This document shows positions 40,024 through 59,308 of a DNA stretch of 64,000 bases, in pieces. The stretch is taken from positions 434,001 through 498,000 of the forward strand of contig NZ_JAFMZK010000002.1 of assembly GCF_029105185.1 (NCBI RefSeq). The letters are read 5' to 3'. Within the stretch, counting starts at the first letter, position 1; each line of letters starts with the position of its first letter. This stretch comes from Aliiroseovarius sp. Z3. Lineage in GTDB: Bacteria > Pseudomonadota > Alphaproteobacteria > Rhodobacterales > Rhodobacteraceae. Under the pieces are notes generated by a model. That model was given only the letters and a program-made list of their open reading frames with translations. It ran no database searches and had not been told where the DNA came from. Position numbers and translations under genes: made by a program.

Positions 40024-40842
40024 TCAGGGCGTGCGACGATGGGGGGTCAACAGGCGTTCTTTCTGCGCCTTTAACTCCTGTTTTGACAGGCGCTGGCGGT
40101 TCAGCGCCAGAAACGCCGCGCGCAGCTTTTCCCGCTGACCGCGGTTGGTATGCGGGGCGGGCGCGAGGTCTGCCCGCACAGAGGCAGGCACATCCGCAAG
40201 ATCCAACAGGGCCGTGGCCAATCCGTTCGGATCGTCCGAGTGATCTTCCAGCGCAGCAGTCACGACCGGGATGGGCGACAATGCCTCGGCCATACCCCGC
40301 GCTTGTTCAACCGGCGCGACGTCCATCGGAAACCGTCCGCGAAAGGTGTCGTAATCATCGGTCAGACGGATTGAGCGCAGAAGATGCCCGTGTACCGACC
40401 GAAGCCAATCCTCGCGTTCGCGGGTTGTGTAAAAGAATGTGATTGCGACGCCGGGTCCAAAACGAAGGCGCAGTTCTTTCACGATGGTCCGGGCAAGTTT
40501 CTGGGCGGCGGGAAGATAGGATGTGATCAACCGCCCACCCAGCATCCGGTGCCCCGGCATCCCGCCCGAAAAGCTTTCGCGCGACAGGATGATAACCTCG
40601 TGATCGGGGATTGAGGCCAGGAACGTGCGAAGAGCCTTGCGAAACAGATACAGGCGATGTGGAAAAGGTCGCTGTGCATACAGCCGCGCGGCAGCGCCCG
40701 CGTTCAGAAAATCGCGCTGGCCGTAATAGTCGAAATAGGGCGCAAGGGCGGCGCGGTTCTGGCTCAGGAAATCCTGAAGGCTTGTCGTGCCGGTCTTATG
40801 AAAGCCGGCATGGACAATGACATGGGGCTTTCCGGGGGTCAT
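40024..40842 (-). CDS. sulfotransferase-like P-loop protein
   Basis: A 272-residue protein. [16 protein letters not shown] (residues 8-23) is a PAPS-type P-loop, and [20 protein letters not shown] resembles the 3'-phosphate-binding region of sulfotransferases. It would transfer sulfate from PAPS to a sugar, lipid or peptide, or may have lost activity. It overlaps rimM by 4 bp and sits between rimM and trmD, where no carbohydrate gene is expected. Confidence 0.78.
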
Positions 40843-54632: not shown

Positions 54633-55220
54633 TCAGTGCAATTTGCCCGACAGGTCGATGGACACAACCTGATTGTCGATCCTGTCGATTTCCATCACCC
54701 GACCTGCGGCGCTGGTGTCCAACCCCAACCGCTTTGCCCAACGCGGCCAGCTGGCCGGGATCAGTCCCAGAACACGGGTCGCCCCAAGGTCGCGGGCTGA
54801 TTTCGTCATCTCGGAAATCAGGTGCGCGTGGACCAAGCGCCGCGTACGTTGTGGCGTGTCATGCGCCACGAAAACGCGGCTGCTTTCCCAGACATTTTCA
54901 GCGACAGGGGCTTCGTCATACAGCAGATCTGACGGGATGGATTCCAACAGTCCCAACTGCGCATCACGGATCATGTAGGTGTAGATACCGCACCGCGCCG
55001 TGGTCGGTGTCAGCCGAATGCCTGCCAGAACCCGGCCGAACTCGTGAACCGCGACCCAGCGACTGGCGGGCGTGTCGTACTGGTCAAACTCCATCCCCAG
55101 CGCTTCGGGAAGATCCCAGCGGTTTTGAATGATAAAACTTTGCCGTCTAGCGCGAAGTAGATTGGCAAATAACTCGCCATGGTTGTGTAGATTGGCGAAA
55201 GAAAGTGTGGTCGTCTGCAT
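54633..55220 (-). CDS. luxI: acyl-homoserine-lactone synthase, LuxI family
   Basis: A 195-residue autoinducer synthase using S-adenosylmethionine and acyl-ACP. The invariant LuxI residues are all visible: R25 and F29 (RARRQSF), W35, E44, D46 and D49 in EFDQYD, R69, E112 and R115 in WESSRVF. The acyl chain length cannot be read. The start at 55220 gives MQTTTLSFANLHNHGELF with GGAGG upstream. It follows luxR by 55 bp on the same strand. Confidence 0.94.
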   Translation of the reverse strand: MQTTTLSFANLHNHGELFANLLRARRQSFIIQNRWDLPEALGMEFDQYDTPASRWVAVHEFGRVLAGIRLTPTTARCGIYTYMIRDAQLGLLESIPSDLLYDEAPVAENVWESSRVFVAHDTPQRTRRLVHAHLISEMTKSARDLGATRVLGLIPASWPRWAKRLGLDTSAAGRVMEIDRIDNQVVSIDLSGKLH

Positions 55221-55275
55221 GACATCCTCCAGTTTGGTTGAAAAAACGGGAAGCACGCCCTGGCGACAGCCGGGT

Positions 55276-55887
55276 CTAGATCAGTCGATAGTCCTTAGCT
55301 CTCTGGATGGCCTCGGCCGAGGTGCGTGCGAATAACTTCTTGCGGGCAGAGGACAGACGCGCCTTCAGCGCGCTTTCCGATATGCCCAGCACAACCGCGC
55401 CAGCCGCATAACGTTCGCCGGATGCCAGCACGTGCAGTGCTTCGATCTCGGCTTTCGTCAAAGTATCGGGGGGTTGTGAAACATGGTGAAGCCGAAGCAC
55501 GACACCGCTGATCGCGGCGATCTCTTCATCGGTGAATTCCCGGTCAGCCCGGGCCAAACCAGCCACTGTCCGCGACGAAATTTCGCCGCAGGACACGCAG
55601 ACGCCACAGACCAACCCGTGACGCGCCGCATCTTTCATGATGCCGAACGGGTCGGGCAGGTCGATATCGCTCCAGCGTGTGGCGCCGGTGCGCGATATGC
55701 CCCAGGCGATCATCGGGTCGCGCAGGGCGTAAGCATTGCGCGTATAGTGATCGGACCAGGCTTGCGAGTAGGTCTGGAAGGTCAAGAGAGGTGCGGCAAA
55801 ACGAATGTGCAGCCCGACGAAATATCCCGCCGGGGCCATAGGTCCCAATTCGTTCAGCAGCGAGTCGATCGCTTGATTCCGGCTCAT
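55276..55887 (-). CDS. luxR: LuxR-family quorum-sensing regulator
   Basis: A 203-residue transcription factor. Residues 20-110 form an autoinducer-binding domain with W44, Y48, D57, P58 and W72 matching conserved TraR positions, and residues 140-200 a LuxR helix-turn-helix (LTKAEIEALHVLASGE ... GISESALKARLSSARKKL). It is somewhat shorter than TraR (234) but complete. It should bind the luxI product and control target genes. Confidence 0.93.
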   Translation of the reverse strand: MSRNQAIDSLLNELGPMAPAGYFVGLHIRFAAPLLTFQTYSQAWSDHYTRNAYALRDPMIAWGISRTGATRWSDIDLPDPFGIMKDAARHGLVCGVCVSCGEISSRTVAGLARADREFTDEEIAAISGVVLRLHHVSQPPDTLTKAEIEALHVLASGERYAAGAVVLGISESALKARLSSARKKLFARTSAEAIQRAKDYRLI

Positions 55888-56333
55888 GGTTAATTTTTGG
55901 CTACACCGAAGAGAAACACAACCTAAAATTGCATGGAAACTATCGAAACATCCATGAGATGTGTCGCAAGATGCCAGCGGGCCAAGCTCTCATTGAACAA
56001 AATAAGATGCAAGCCTAAACCTAAGCCAAGCGATGAGATGCAATCTAGGGTAGTCATGTGTATTCCAGAAGGCGACAGTGGGCGGTTAATTGAGAATTGT
56101 CGTCGTATAGGAAAAGAACAGACCAACACTCGAAATGTTCGCTGTCAGATTTAGGGGGAGTTTGGTTGAGAGATGGAGGCGCTGCAGCAAGAAAGGACCG
56201 AACACAGGTACACACGGTTTAACGTTCAAGGCTTACCGTAGCATTTGGTGCTAATGTCATTCCGGCGCAGATTAAGGGTGTCGCTGTATTAACCCAGGAA
56301 CCTCGCGGCAAAGTGACGACGGACTATAACCGT
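55888..56333 (-). other. non-coding gap upstream of luxR
   Basis: 446 bp without a supported gene and visibly poorer in GC than its neighbours. A 25-bp imperfect palindrome with 6-bp arms CATGGA / TCCATG (55932-55956) lies about 45 bp upstream of luxR and could be an operator; it does not match the classical lux box. The rest holds nothing I recognise; open frames here lack ribosome sites. Confidence 0.5.
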
Positions 56334-58640
56334 TTACCTTCCACGCATGGATTTCGGCAGCCGCCGCACCGCTCTCAATGGCGAAGTAATTCGCCAGCTC
56401 AATGTATTGCGAATATCTTGAATTGAAGCACGCAGATCCGCATTCTGTTTCTTAAGCCTCTCGATCTGGACGGAATCAACCGCCGGTGTTTCGGCGGCTG
56501 CTTCTAAAACCGAATACTCAACAAGGTTTTCGATCCGAGGGGCGCTTGGCTTTTTCATCTGTGTGTCAAACCAGGCTTGCCCCTGCAACGTCTCGTCAGA
56601 CTCATCGGAAAACAGTTCGTATGGTGATTTGCGTAATCCTTGGTTTTTCAGGATGTGCGCAAGCAGCCTGTCCTTTTCCGCGCTATCGATTCTTAGAGTC
56701 TTGGCCAGCATAACCGCCAATGCCTGGGCATCTGACATTGCTGTATTTACATCCCGGCGTTCTGCGGGTGTTGCGATATCATTTGGCAACCCCAAGGCAT
56801 CCGAAAACCAGCGATCGGCTCCAACCTTCCGAAGATCCGAATAGTCGCCGAAATGTGTCGCAGTCACATTGGGGGCCTTTGAGATTTCATCTTGAAGATA
56901 GCCATAATCCAACAGCCTCAAACCCTCGACTTTTGTGTAAAACTCGCGGGGCGAAGTGAACATCTTGTTGTGCATCGAAGAAATCACTTCCTTGTACAGC
57001 GAGCGCAACCAGCTCTGCTGTTCACGGAACACAGCAACCACTTCGATGTTCTTGAAGCCAAGGGAGGAGGTAATTTTCGAGATCCGTCCAGATATCGTTC
57101 CGCCAAAAGCGTATTCTGTAAACAAATGAGAAAGGATGCTTTCGGAAGACAGGATGATCGTATGAGGCTTGCCCGGCTGGTTTTCGATCTCATATGCGAG
57201 GTGGGTTTTGAAGGTTTCCAGAAGGTCTGGTTGTTCTGCCGAGTTCAGTATTGAACGCATCAAAGCAGCGTGCCCGGCTGAACGCATATACCGCTCTCCG
57301 TGATCGCGATTCACGCCAGTGACGGGATACATGACACCCCTCAGCGCCAAATCGTAACGGTTTTCCTCAAGATAATCTTGAATCGCCGATGAACCGGTTT
57401 TCGGTTGCCCGATATGAAGAATAACTCGATCGACGCTGGCAAACACGTCTTCAACCGGTTTGTTAAGTTCCAGGTCAGAATAAAACCCATTGCGGTTGAA
57501 ACGTAGATAGTGACACAACGCGTCTTTCGCCCATGGATATTTCGACACTCCAATCAGATCATAAGCATCATGCGGCTTGATCCGTTGGCGTAGGAGCAAC
57601 TGGCGCAGCAAGTCAAACCGGCCGACTTCAAGGCAAATGCGAGCAGCATCAATCGTTGCTTCTTTTTGCAAGATAACTTGATTTGAAACCACCCGATCAT
57701 GCCGGTTCGAATAGAGTGCTGGGAGTTGATTGGTGAGATTATCAAGAGCCGTAAGAAATCTTTGCACAAACTCGGGCAGATCGTCAAAAACGGTTCTGGG
57801 TGTGGCTGGCTCAAGCTCCTCGATAATTACATTCTTCCACAGAGCGAAAGTGTTCATCCAATATATGCATCCGTTCACGTGCATATAGTTCGATAGTTTG
57901 TATCCATCTTTTTCAGCACTATCAAAATTCGCTTTCACGATTTCCATGTGAACAGAAAAAAGTTCGAACTGGTCTCGCGTGACGCGCGTCATGGTGCTTG
58001 TGGGATGCTTTCGATAGACAAAAGCGTTAACATTGGTAACGGAAACACGATCAGCTCGGATCATCGCCGACGAAGAAAACACGCGATCCTCTCGTTGACG
58101 AAGCTTCGTTGAGAACCGGATGTCATGTTTGTCAAGAAATTCTCGGCAATACATGATTTGACACCCAAGACGTACATTTGCGAGTTCGGGGTTTTGGGAA
58201 GCGTTCCCATTCCCATCCAGCACGGCATCCAGCCCGTCGAGCTCGTGCTGGCGAAATGTTCCGTCCTCGCGCAATACGATGTAGTTGGCCACACAGATTT
58301 CGCTGGAATGCCTGTCCGCATGATCGATCCAATCCCGAACCGATGTCGTCGAGGCAAAGTAGTCATCGGAATCCAAGAAAATTATGTATCGTCCTTCCGC
58401 GATGTCCAAACCGCGGTTGCGAGATCTGGCTTGGCCAATGTTCTTCGGGTTGCTCAGAACGATTAGATCGGGGTGCTGCGATGCAATATCAGTAGCCAGC
58501 GACAGCGACCCGTCCGTGCTGCAATCATCGATGAATATGATTTGGAGGCGGACATCCTCTTGCGACAAAGCAGATGTCAAACACTGTTGGAGGTATTTTT
58601 CCGTGTTGAAGCAGGGGATAATGATCGTTGCGTCGTACAT
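56334..58640 (-). CDS. glycosyltransferase 2 / sulfotransferase fusion protein
   Basis: A 768-residue protein. Residues 1-230 are a family 2 glycosyltransferase: ATIIIPCFNTEKYLQQCL, FIDDCSTDGS (D38, D39) and FLDSDDYF (D90-D92). The middle (250-400) is unassigned. From about 405 a second catalytic module begins with VILHIGQPKTGSSAIQDYL, a PAPS-type sulfotransferase P-loop. The C-terminus (about 718-768) has a coiled coil and a basic end (RAVRRLPKSMRGR). One chain could add a sugar and sulfate it. Codon use and base composition look foreign. Confidence 0.85.
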   Translation of the reverse strand: MYDATIIIPCFNTEKYLQQCLTSALSQEDVRLQIIFIDDCSTDGSLSLATDIASQHPDLIVLSNPKNIGQARSRNRGLDIAEGRYIIFLDSDDYFASTTSVRDWIDHADRHSSEICVANYIVLREDGTFRQHELDGLDAVLDGNGNASQNPELANVRLGCQIMYCREFLDKHDIRFSTKLRQREDRVFSSSAMIRADRVSVTNVNAFVYRKHPTSTMTRVTRDQFELFSVHMEIVKANFDSAEKDGYKLSNYMHVNGCIYWMNTFALWKNVIIEELEPATPRTVFDDLPEFVQRFLTALDNLTNQLPALYSNRHDRVVSNQVILQKEATIDAARICLEVGRFDLLRQLLLRQRIKPHDAYDLIGVSKYPWAKDALCHYLRFNRNGFYSDLELNKPVEDVFASVDRVILHIGQPKTGSSAIQDYLEENRYDLALRGVMYPVTGVNRDHGERYMRSAGHAALMRSILNSAEQPDLLETFKTHLAYEIENQPGKPHTIILSSESILSHLFTEYAFGGTISGRISKITSSLGFKNIEVVAVFREQQSWLRSLYKEVISSMHNKMFTSPREFYTKVEGLRLLDYGYLQDEISKAPNVTATHFGDYSDLRKVGADRWFSDALGLPNDIATPAERRDVNTAMSDAQALAVMLAKTLRIDSAEKDRLLAHILKNQGLRKSPYELFSDESDETLQGQAWFDTQMKKPSAPRIENLVEYSVLEAAAETPAVDSVQIERLKKQNADLRASIQDIRNTLSWRITSPLRAVRRLPKSMRGR

Positions 58641-59233
58641 GGTATTCCTGAAGGTGAGTATGGACGGGGACACGATTTCGTTGAGACGGCTAGGTTTACA
58701 ACCCTGCAAAGTCAAGTCTGCGATAGGCGTCCGCAATACCTCATGCCGGTTGTCTCGAATTCTGAGCCTGATTTATCCCCACACATGATTAGCGTTTCAA
58801 CAGGCCATTTGGAATTGTAAACATGCCGTGCGGCATCAGGTTGCTTCACGATGGTATGCCAGACGCGTCGATGTGATACCCACACGCTGAAACGGTCTGC
58901 CCCTTCAGTTCGGCTAAATGGTTCCGTCGTTGGAATGGTTTGGCAGTGGTTCCCATGTGTCCCTCCCACATCATCGCCTGTCCACATACCATCGAGACAT
59001 TACGCACCTCCGCAACGGTCAGGTCACAGATGTGCAGGGAAAGGCTTACGCGGGTATTGTCAGGCTATCCGCGCAGACTTGCGGGAACGATCTGCCTAGA
59101 GGTGTATTTGGCTATTTCTTGCGATTTAACAGAAACCGAGCTGACAGAACCACCATGTGACACATCAACGAAGCACACGCGGCATCTAGACCTCATTTGA
59201 GGCTGCATCTTGGCGATCTGAGTAAGGAAAAAG
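58641..59233. other. gene-poor stretch beside tRNA-Thr
   Basis: 593 bp between the fusion protein and the tRNA, with mixed composition and many stops. No frame here has both a ribosome site and recognisable protein features. No integrase, transposase or clear direct repeat of the tRNA 3' end was seen, so island boundaries are not proven. Confidence 0.5.

Positions 59234-59308
<75 letters not shown>

Follow-up and report, generated by a model that had tools for sequence, protein, structure and literature searches.

A glycosyltransferase family 2 domain and a sulfotransferase-like half in one polypeptide of Aliiroseovarius sp. Z3, encoded by a single-gene insert at a tRNA-Thr

The union of a sugar-polymer enzyme and a sulfotransferase in a single polypeptide is exemplified by the heparan sulfate N-deacetylase/N-sulfotransferase (NDST), an animal enzyme that resembles in this respect the protein described here and differs from it in carrying a deacetylase instead of a glycosyltransferase. 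Sulfated bacterial polysaccharides have been ascribed, in the portions of the literature examined, to glycosyltransferase genes plus sulfotransferase genes and not to fusions. For instance, glycosyltransferase and sulfotransferase genes are assigned to one pathway for the sulfated capsules of Cobetia marina KMM 1449 and Vibrio sp. KMM 8419 (PMC11766843, PMC11641403); the sections consulted in these reports describe separate genes and mention no fusion, in contrast to the arrangement found here. Literature on glycosyltransferases or polysaccharides together with sulfotransferases, and on Roseobacter genera, contained no description of such a fusion in the text available (including PMC13390465, PMC11625862 and PMC4483657), and subscription papers may hold one; an exact-phrase search for a glycosyltransferase-sulfotransferase fusion returned 0 papers.

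In this work, we analyzed a stretch of 64,000 nucleotides from Aliiroseovarius sp. Z3 (the window; contig NZ_JAFMZK010000002.1, positions 434,001 to 498,000), in which an original prediction made from the letters had placed a protein that could both extend and sulfate a surface glycan. With the integration of profile comparisons, conservation across relatives and comparative genomics of the locus, we consider it likely that this gene encodes a bifunctional glycosyltransferase/sulfotransferase, with two working sites in one cytoplasmic polypeptide that would decorate a surface glycan, and that it behaves as one inherited unit carried here as a single-gene insert at a tRNA-Thr. Counted against the bifunctional reading were the silence of Pfam and NCBIfam on the sulfotransferase half, a weaker match to solved structures when fusion proteins alone were used, and the loss of the serine equivalent to S547 in 8 of 22 fusions.

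Two enzyme-type halves in one frame

The gene occupies positions 56334..58640 on the minus strand, a strand that the original prediction had left unnamed, and its frame is real: 768 codons run from an ATG at 58640 to a single terminal stop, while frame 1 of the plus strand over 56334-58640 is interrupted by many stops. An alternative TTG start would yield an 800-aa frame; the ATG is the likelier start, since AGGA stands five bases upstream of it.

By its sequence, the first half is a GT2 domain, as had been proposed. Residues 5-170 (58131..58628, minus strand) match PF00535 with an E-value of 6.5e-31 and 108 bits against a curated cut-off of 23.3, and further glycosyltransferase matches were obtained in the PDB and in NCBIfam, those in the latter all below their own cut-offs. 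The DD at residues 38-39 and the DSD at 90-92 lie where the original prediction had put them, with D39 and D90-S-D92-D93 inside the Pfam match and E184-D185-R186 (58083-58094, minus strand) just past its end. These GT-A motifs (DD, DxD and the downstream E-D/E-E pair) are present in the window protein and in its fused relatives. Thus, the N-terminal half is alike to the PF00535 family in score and in its DD, DxD and ED motifs, and would be expected to transfer sugar from a nucleotide sugar, whereas the whole protein departs from that family by adding a second catalytic-type domain downstream.

A linker of residues about 236-399 (57444..57935, minus strand), helical in a low-confidence model and conserved in the closest relative (82.7 bits to L009/L058), leads to the second half, which profile comparisons place at residues about 400-650 (56691..57443, minus strand). 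Three stretches stand out in it. The P-loop HIGQPKTGSSAIQ, at residues 409-421 as originally claimed (57378..57416, minus strand) and recognized by its conservation in fusions, likely binds the 5'-phosphosulfate. An S-x-E motif, SSES, follows at residues 498-501 (57138..57149, minus strand), with S498 and E500 present in 22/22 fusions; E500 is a candidate catalytic residue. Finally, FREQQSWLRSLYKE at residues 538-551 (56988..57029, minus strand) holds R539 and S547, separated by a spacing of 8, which likely bind the 3'-phosphate. Among 20000 shuffles of the fusion protein, none contained the pattern H.G..KTG[ST][ST]..Q.

The protein ends in a helical tail, residues 721-768 (56337..56480, minus strand), terminating in SWRITSPLRAVRRLPKSMRGR and delimited by a low-confidence model and a tail motif scan; where the original prediction had seen a C-terminal coiled coil, the single-sequence model of the whole protein has a helix at 723-759 (low confidence, mean pLDDT 39). 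The tail motif SW[RK][IV][TS]xPLR is common only to the window protein and two remote fusions (L065 and L085), being found in 3 of the 1791 ORFs scanned. Single-sequence AlphaFold2 models of the whole protein, and of the sulfotransferase half together with one paralogue, had a mean pLDDT of 39, too poor for fold comparison, and the structure prediction suggested along with the original claim was therefore uninformative.

The identity of the second half was addressed by profiles, and a domain search gave a divided outcome: Pfam recognized the GT2 half, whereas the sulfotransferase half was invisible to plain Pfam and emerged only from profile and hhalign comparisons. Neither the window protein nor its second half had a Pfam or NCBIfam sulfotransferase match at E-values up to 1, and the protein therefore does not belong to Sulfotransfer_1/3/4 as Pfam defines them. 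An alignment of 21 such halves was built, comprising 13 from GT2 fusions and 8 from elsewhere; among these rows Sulfotransfer_3 touched 4, Sulfotransfer_4 touched 4 and Sulfotransfer_1 touched 3, with a best E-value of 0.0016, and NCBIfam touched 0/21. Against the PDB, the 21-row profile retrieved solved sulfotransferases as its top matches (SULT4A1, 1zd1, 7.7e-6; 3rnl, 4.8e-5), a match carried mainly by the R...S part, with the P-loop aligned in order and contributing little score; the profile of the 13 fusion halves alone gave a weaker match (SULT4A1, 2.6e-4). In a direct hhalign comparison, the 13 fusion halves matched 16 Pfam Sulfotransfer_3 domains from genomes of the genus with a probability of 97.1% (E 5.9e-11), P-loop lying on P-loop and Arg...Ser on Arg...Ser, with K-T-G-[ST]-[ST] in register. 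As a control, the GT2 halves were compared with the same sulfotransferases (0.6%).

The fact that Pfam sulfotransferase models do not reach this half leaves room for another P-loop nucleotide enzyme, kinase- or ATPase-like, but we regard this as extremely unlikely: the fusion halves matched four ABC ATPase domains, the sole other P-loop kind compared, with a probability of 0.3% against the 97.1% reached with sulfotransferases, and both K-T-G-[ST]-[ST] and R...S are in register with the latter. The second half is thus sulfotransferase-like at the superfamily level, but no member of a Pfam sulfotransferase family by Pfam's cut-offs, as indicated by the profile and hhalign matches together with the lack of Pfam hits. 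The K414-T415-G416 P-loop and the R539 and S547 typical of PAPS sulfotransferases are present in the window protein, and PAPS-dependent sulfate transfer is the activity predicted for this half. Compared with Sulfotransfer_3 domains, 1zd1 and 3rnl, it shares the P-loop and the register of the 3'-phosphate Arg/Ser, and differs in a signature of its own, H-x-G-x-x-K-T-G-[ST]-[ST]-x-x-Q ... S-x-E. The genome encodes an APS kinase, for PAPS supply. A second, stand-alone sulfotransferase of the same type (272 aa; Pfam below cut-off) lies in the window at 40024-40842 on the minus strand.

Fused relatives and the conservation of both sites

A search for proteins with the same domain order returned 21 further fusions, which led us to reject a one-off or frameshift artefact as the origin of the window frame. 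The resulting 22 proteins, from 19 genomes or plasmid records, always have the GT2 half first and the sulfotransferase half second, separated by 124-165 residues in all 22. The closest one belongs to the same genus (genome G004; 43% identity over residues 3-717), and named carriers include Leisingera sp. S132, Leisingera caerulea, Qingshengfaniella alkalisoli and Cereibacter azotoformans; in the plasmid records consulted these proteins are annotated only as 'glycosyltransferase' or 'glycosyltransferase family 2 protein'. Such annotations, and the lack of a Pfam or NCBIfam model on the window protein's second half, mean that the sulfation capacity of these bacteria may be under-counted. For L140 (genome G319), whose match contains one in-frame TGA, the open piece alone was used. 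A further protein, L225, in which residues 403-638 of its 771 aa give a sulfotransferase match, probably represents one more fusion, the 23rd, and stays outside the count of 22.

In a sample of the order, scanned with a fusion profile and at most seven candidates scored per genome, both halves were covered by a match in 8 of 149 genomes, a figure that counts the genome of the window itself. Among 385 genomes of the class and 398 of the phylum, with at most two candidates scored per genome, no match to both halves was found outside the window's family; given these numbers of candidates scored, fusions may be missed at all three levels. Genome contigs searched with the window protein alone yielded only two relatives, both GT-only. 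Viral contigs gave 5 pattern matches, none of them a relative, and phage records had no match to the sulfotransferase half. A 731-aa GT2 protein of the same genome (C1) was considered as a second fusion and discarded, as it does not match the sulfotransferase half and no such P-loop is seen in its sequence.

Both sites are intact in this set. On the glycosyltransferase side, D39, D90, D92, D93, E184 and R186 are kept in 22/22 proteins, position 185 being D in 17 and E in 5; on the sulfotransferase side, H409, G411, K414, T415, G416, Q421, S498, E500 and R539 are equally kept in 22/22, and position 428 is R in 21/22. The conservation of K-T-G in all 22 fusions upholds the P-loop assignment of the original prediction, which its absence would have undermined, as the PDB profile and hhalign matches and their failed controls uphold the sulfotransferase nature of the second half. 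Position 547, that of the 3'-phosphate serine, varies (S in 14, A in 6 and R in 2).

These data bear on a reading in which the second half is a pseudo-enzyme, that is, a sulfotransferase-fold scaffold or a carbohydrate-binding part assisting the glycosyltransferase. The absence of the serine from the 8 fusions mentioned above speaks for it, and there is a precedent in a family of the L075 type, where a sulfotransferase-like domain precedes a GT92 domain (L075:6261-8714) and the P-loop lysine, judged by eye, is gone in 14/14 proteins (13 fetched plus L075). We nevertheless find this reading quite improbable, as K, T, G, S-x-E and R are retained in 22/22 GT2 fusions despite identities to the window's sulfotransferase half that fall to 22%. 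The L075-type proteins themselves are likely pseudo-sulfotransferases, judging from this loss. Thus, the P-loop can decay in a fused module, and the preservation of both sites in the GT2 fusions gains weight from this contrast.

The L075-type set derives from 16 candidates fetched, three of which (L224, L225 and L226) represent different types of protein. Pfam was used to identify the GT92 part in L075 only; the rest of the set matches L075 along almost the entire fetched sequence, except L227, whose frame matches it over 375 of 485 residues. In the 13 fetched loci (L212-L223 and L227), a second frame of 347-420 aa matching L075 adjoins in 13/13. L226 carries an 800-aa frame (L226:874-3273) in which residues 483-721 match sulfotransferases and a P-loop-like stretch, QKTGTTS, lies near the N-terminus; it perhaps holds two sulfotransferases in one protein.

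The two halves have been inherited together. Pairwise identities of the glycosyltransferase and sulfotransferase halves correlate with r 0.90 (a value reached by none of 9999 permutations; 0.86 when two near-copies are removed), a co-variation also expected from common descent alone. Furthermore, trees of each half, obtained from quick searches with SH-aLRT support and including the best 29 of 96 glycosyltransferase rows and the best 26 of 47 sulfotransferase rows lacking the other half, recover the same three clades: A (the window protein, L058, L059, L083 and L145), B (L067 twice, L072, L086 and L146) and C (12 rows). The glycosyltransferase tree omits L087, which is part of the window gene itself. 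A long extension at the N-terminus distinguishes the five clade B fusions, and a Capsule_synth domain precedes GT2 in both clade B proteins scanned with Pfam. Two GT-less proteins stand beside clade C in the sulfotransferase tree; several fusion events, or loss, are therefore possible.

Proposed activity and other joinings of the domains

In the mechanism that we favor, the N-terminal GT-A/GT2 domain would move a sugar from a nucleotide sugar onto a surface polysaccharide or lipid-linked glycan under assembly, and the C-terminal PAPS-dependent domain would next sulfate that sugar, or the one adjacent to it, prior to export. The protein would be an accessory decorator, with the remaining enzymes of the glycan encoded elsewhere in the genome. 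If both sites work in this manner, sulfate would go to a fixed position within the repeat, and a fused enzyme with its sites intact could constitute a compact tool for obtaining defined sulfated glycans. The existence of fused relatives with both sites intact suggests that bacteria hard-wire sulfation to sugar-chain building.

Both domains might also be active on different substrates or steps, with the acceptor being sulfated before sugar transfer, for example, or an unrelated residue being sulfated, so that fusion would only set dosage or co-place the activities at an assembly site. Related sulfotransferase domains are indeed joined to other glycosyltransferase families and in either order: besides L075, a GT92/GT2_4 domain precedes the sulfotransferase in L196:697-3534, and a sulfotransferase-like domain precedes a GT4-type domain, just above its cut-off, in L194:1507-3696, both from other families of the class. 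In L194, R replaces K in the P-loop and the frame runs off the locus. Such varied joinings look as if proximity, and not one reaction pair, had been selected. The constant order and spacing of the GT2 fusions and their co-varying halves fit a shared substrate, though common descent would suffice for them, and we judge the separate-substrates reading unlikely.

The insert at tRNA-Thr and the surroundings of related genes

The fusion gene is the cargo of a 3.2-kb insert (56022..59233) with a GC content of 0.497 (0.599 over the entire window); 2307-base stretches taken every 50 bases clear of the insert were never below 0.555. The insert is bordered on one side by the 3' end of a tRNA-Thr (ggt; 59234..59308, minus strand), and flanked on the other by a luxR-type regulator gene with an autoinducer-binding domain (55276..55887, minus strand), followed by a luxI-type autoinducer synthase gene (54633..55256, minus strand). 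Near the tRNA, a fragment at 58957..59106 (minus strand) has 52% identity to residues 17-66 of a DUF6538 protein encoded at the same tRNA in genome G008 (E 5.9e-10), and the tRNA-side 272 bases of the insert (58962-59233) are common to both genomes. DUF6538 is, presumably, a domain found at the start of phage-type integrases, and the fragment is likely an integrase remnant.

From 19 other genomes of the genus with a murA match, 16 loci at the murA/tRNA-Thr place were drawn. The luxR/luxI side was also matched in 10 of these, which constitute the comparable loci; it was unmatched in the remaining 6, one of which (L103) is a short contig end. The fusion protein had no match at this place in 16/16 loci and is thus absent from 10/10 comparable ones, six of which display a near-empty site, with 143-191 bases between the flanks. 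We dropped the idea that the fusion gene is part of the luxR/luxI locus, as ten loci of the genus keep luxR/luxI without it. Other cargo is found at the site: a single gene for an FkbM-methyltransferase and GT61 fusion in G012 and G020, an HGSNAT_cat gene in G015, and the gene of the DUF6538 protein in G008, which completes the ten comparable loci. Direct repeats in the region comprised only two-copy families of 15-18 bases, with no clear attachment site, promoter and terminator counts were close to those of shuffles, and the insert DNA had no match among plasmids.

The gene would have arrived as a single-gene insert at the tRNA-Thr site, possibly from another lineage. The variable cargo and the DUF6538 fragment suggest a site at which glycan-modifying genes are exchanged with the help of an integrase. 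A broader reading, which we put forward tentatively as a possibility, is that Rhodobacterales hard-wire sulfation to the building of the chain via GT2-sulfotransferase enzymes that are self-contained, and that the DUF6538-served tRNA-Thr/luxR-luxI site swaps single-gene glycan decorators (GT2-sulfotransferase, FkbM-GT61 and HGSNAT-type) among close relatives. If so, the exchange of a single gene would be enough for a strain to switch the chemistry of its surface glycan.

Elsewhere, fusion genes occupy diverse surroundings. Two Leisingera fusions sit in clusters that also contain genes for polysaccharide export, glf and additional sulfotransferases. Four clade C fusions from four genera (L061, L063, L064 and L066) adjoin tgt, with another open frame between fusion and tgt in L066, and three of them also adjoin lon; in L061, lon and tgt were confirmed with Pfam, whose assignment was extended to L063, L064 and L066 through sequence identity. 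As the window gene lies outside a polysaccharide cluster and these four relatives lie near tgt, the substrate is not readable from the neighbours. The tgt/lon neighbourhood represents a conserved place outside polysaccharide clusters for clade C fusions, and the clade A gene of genome G019 comes after rpoB-rpoC.
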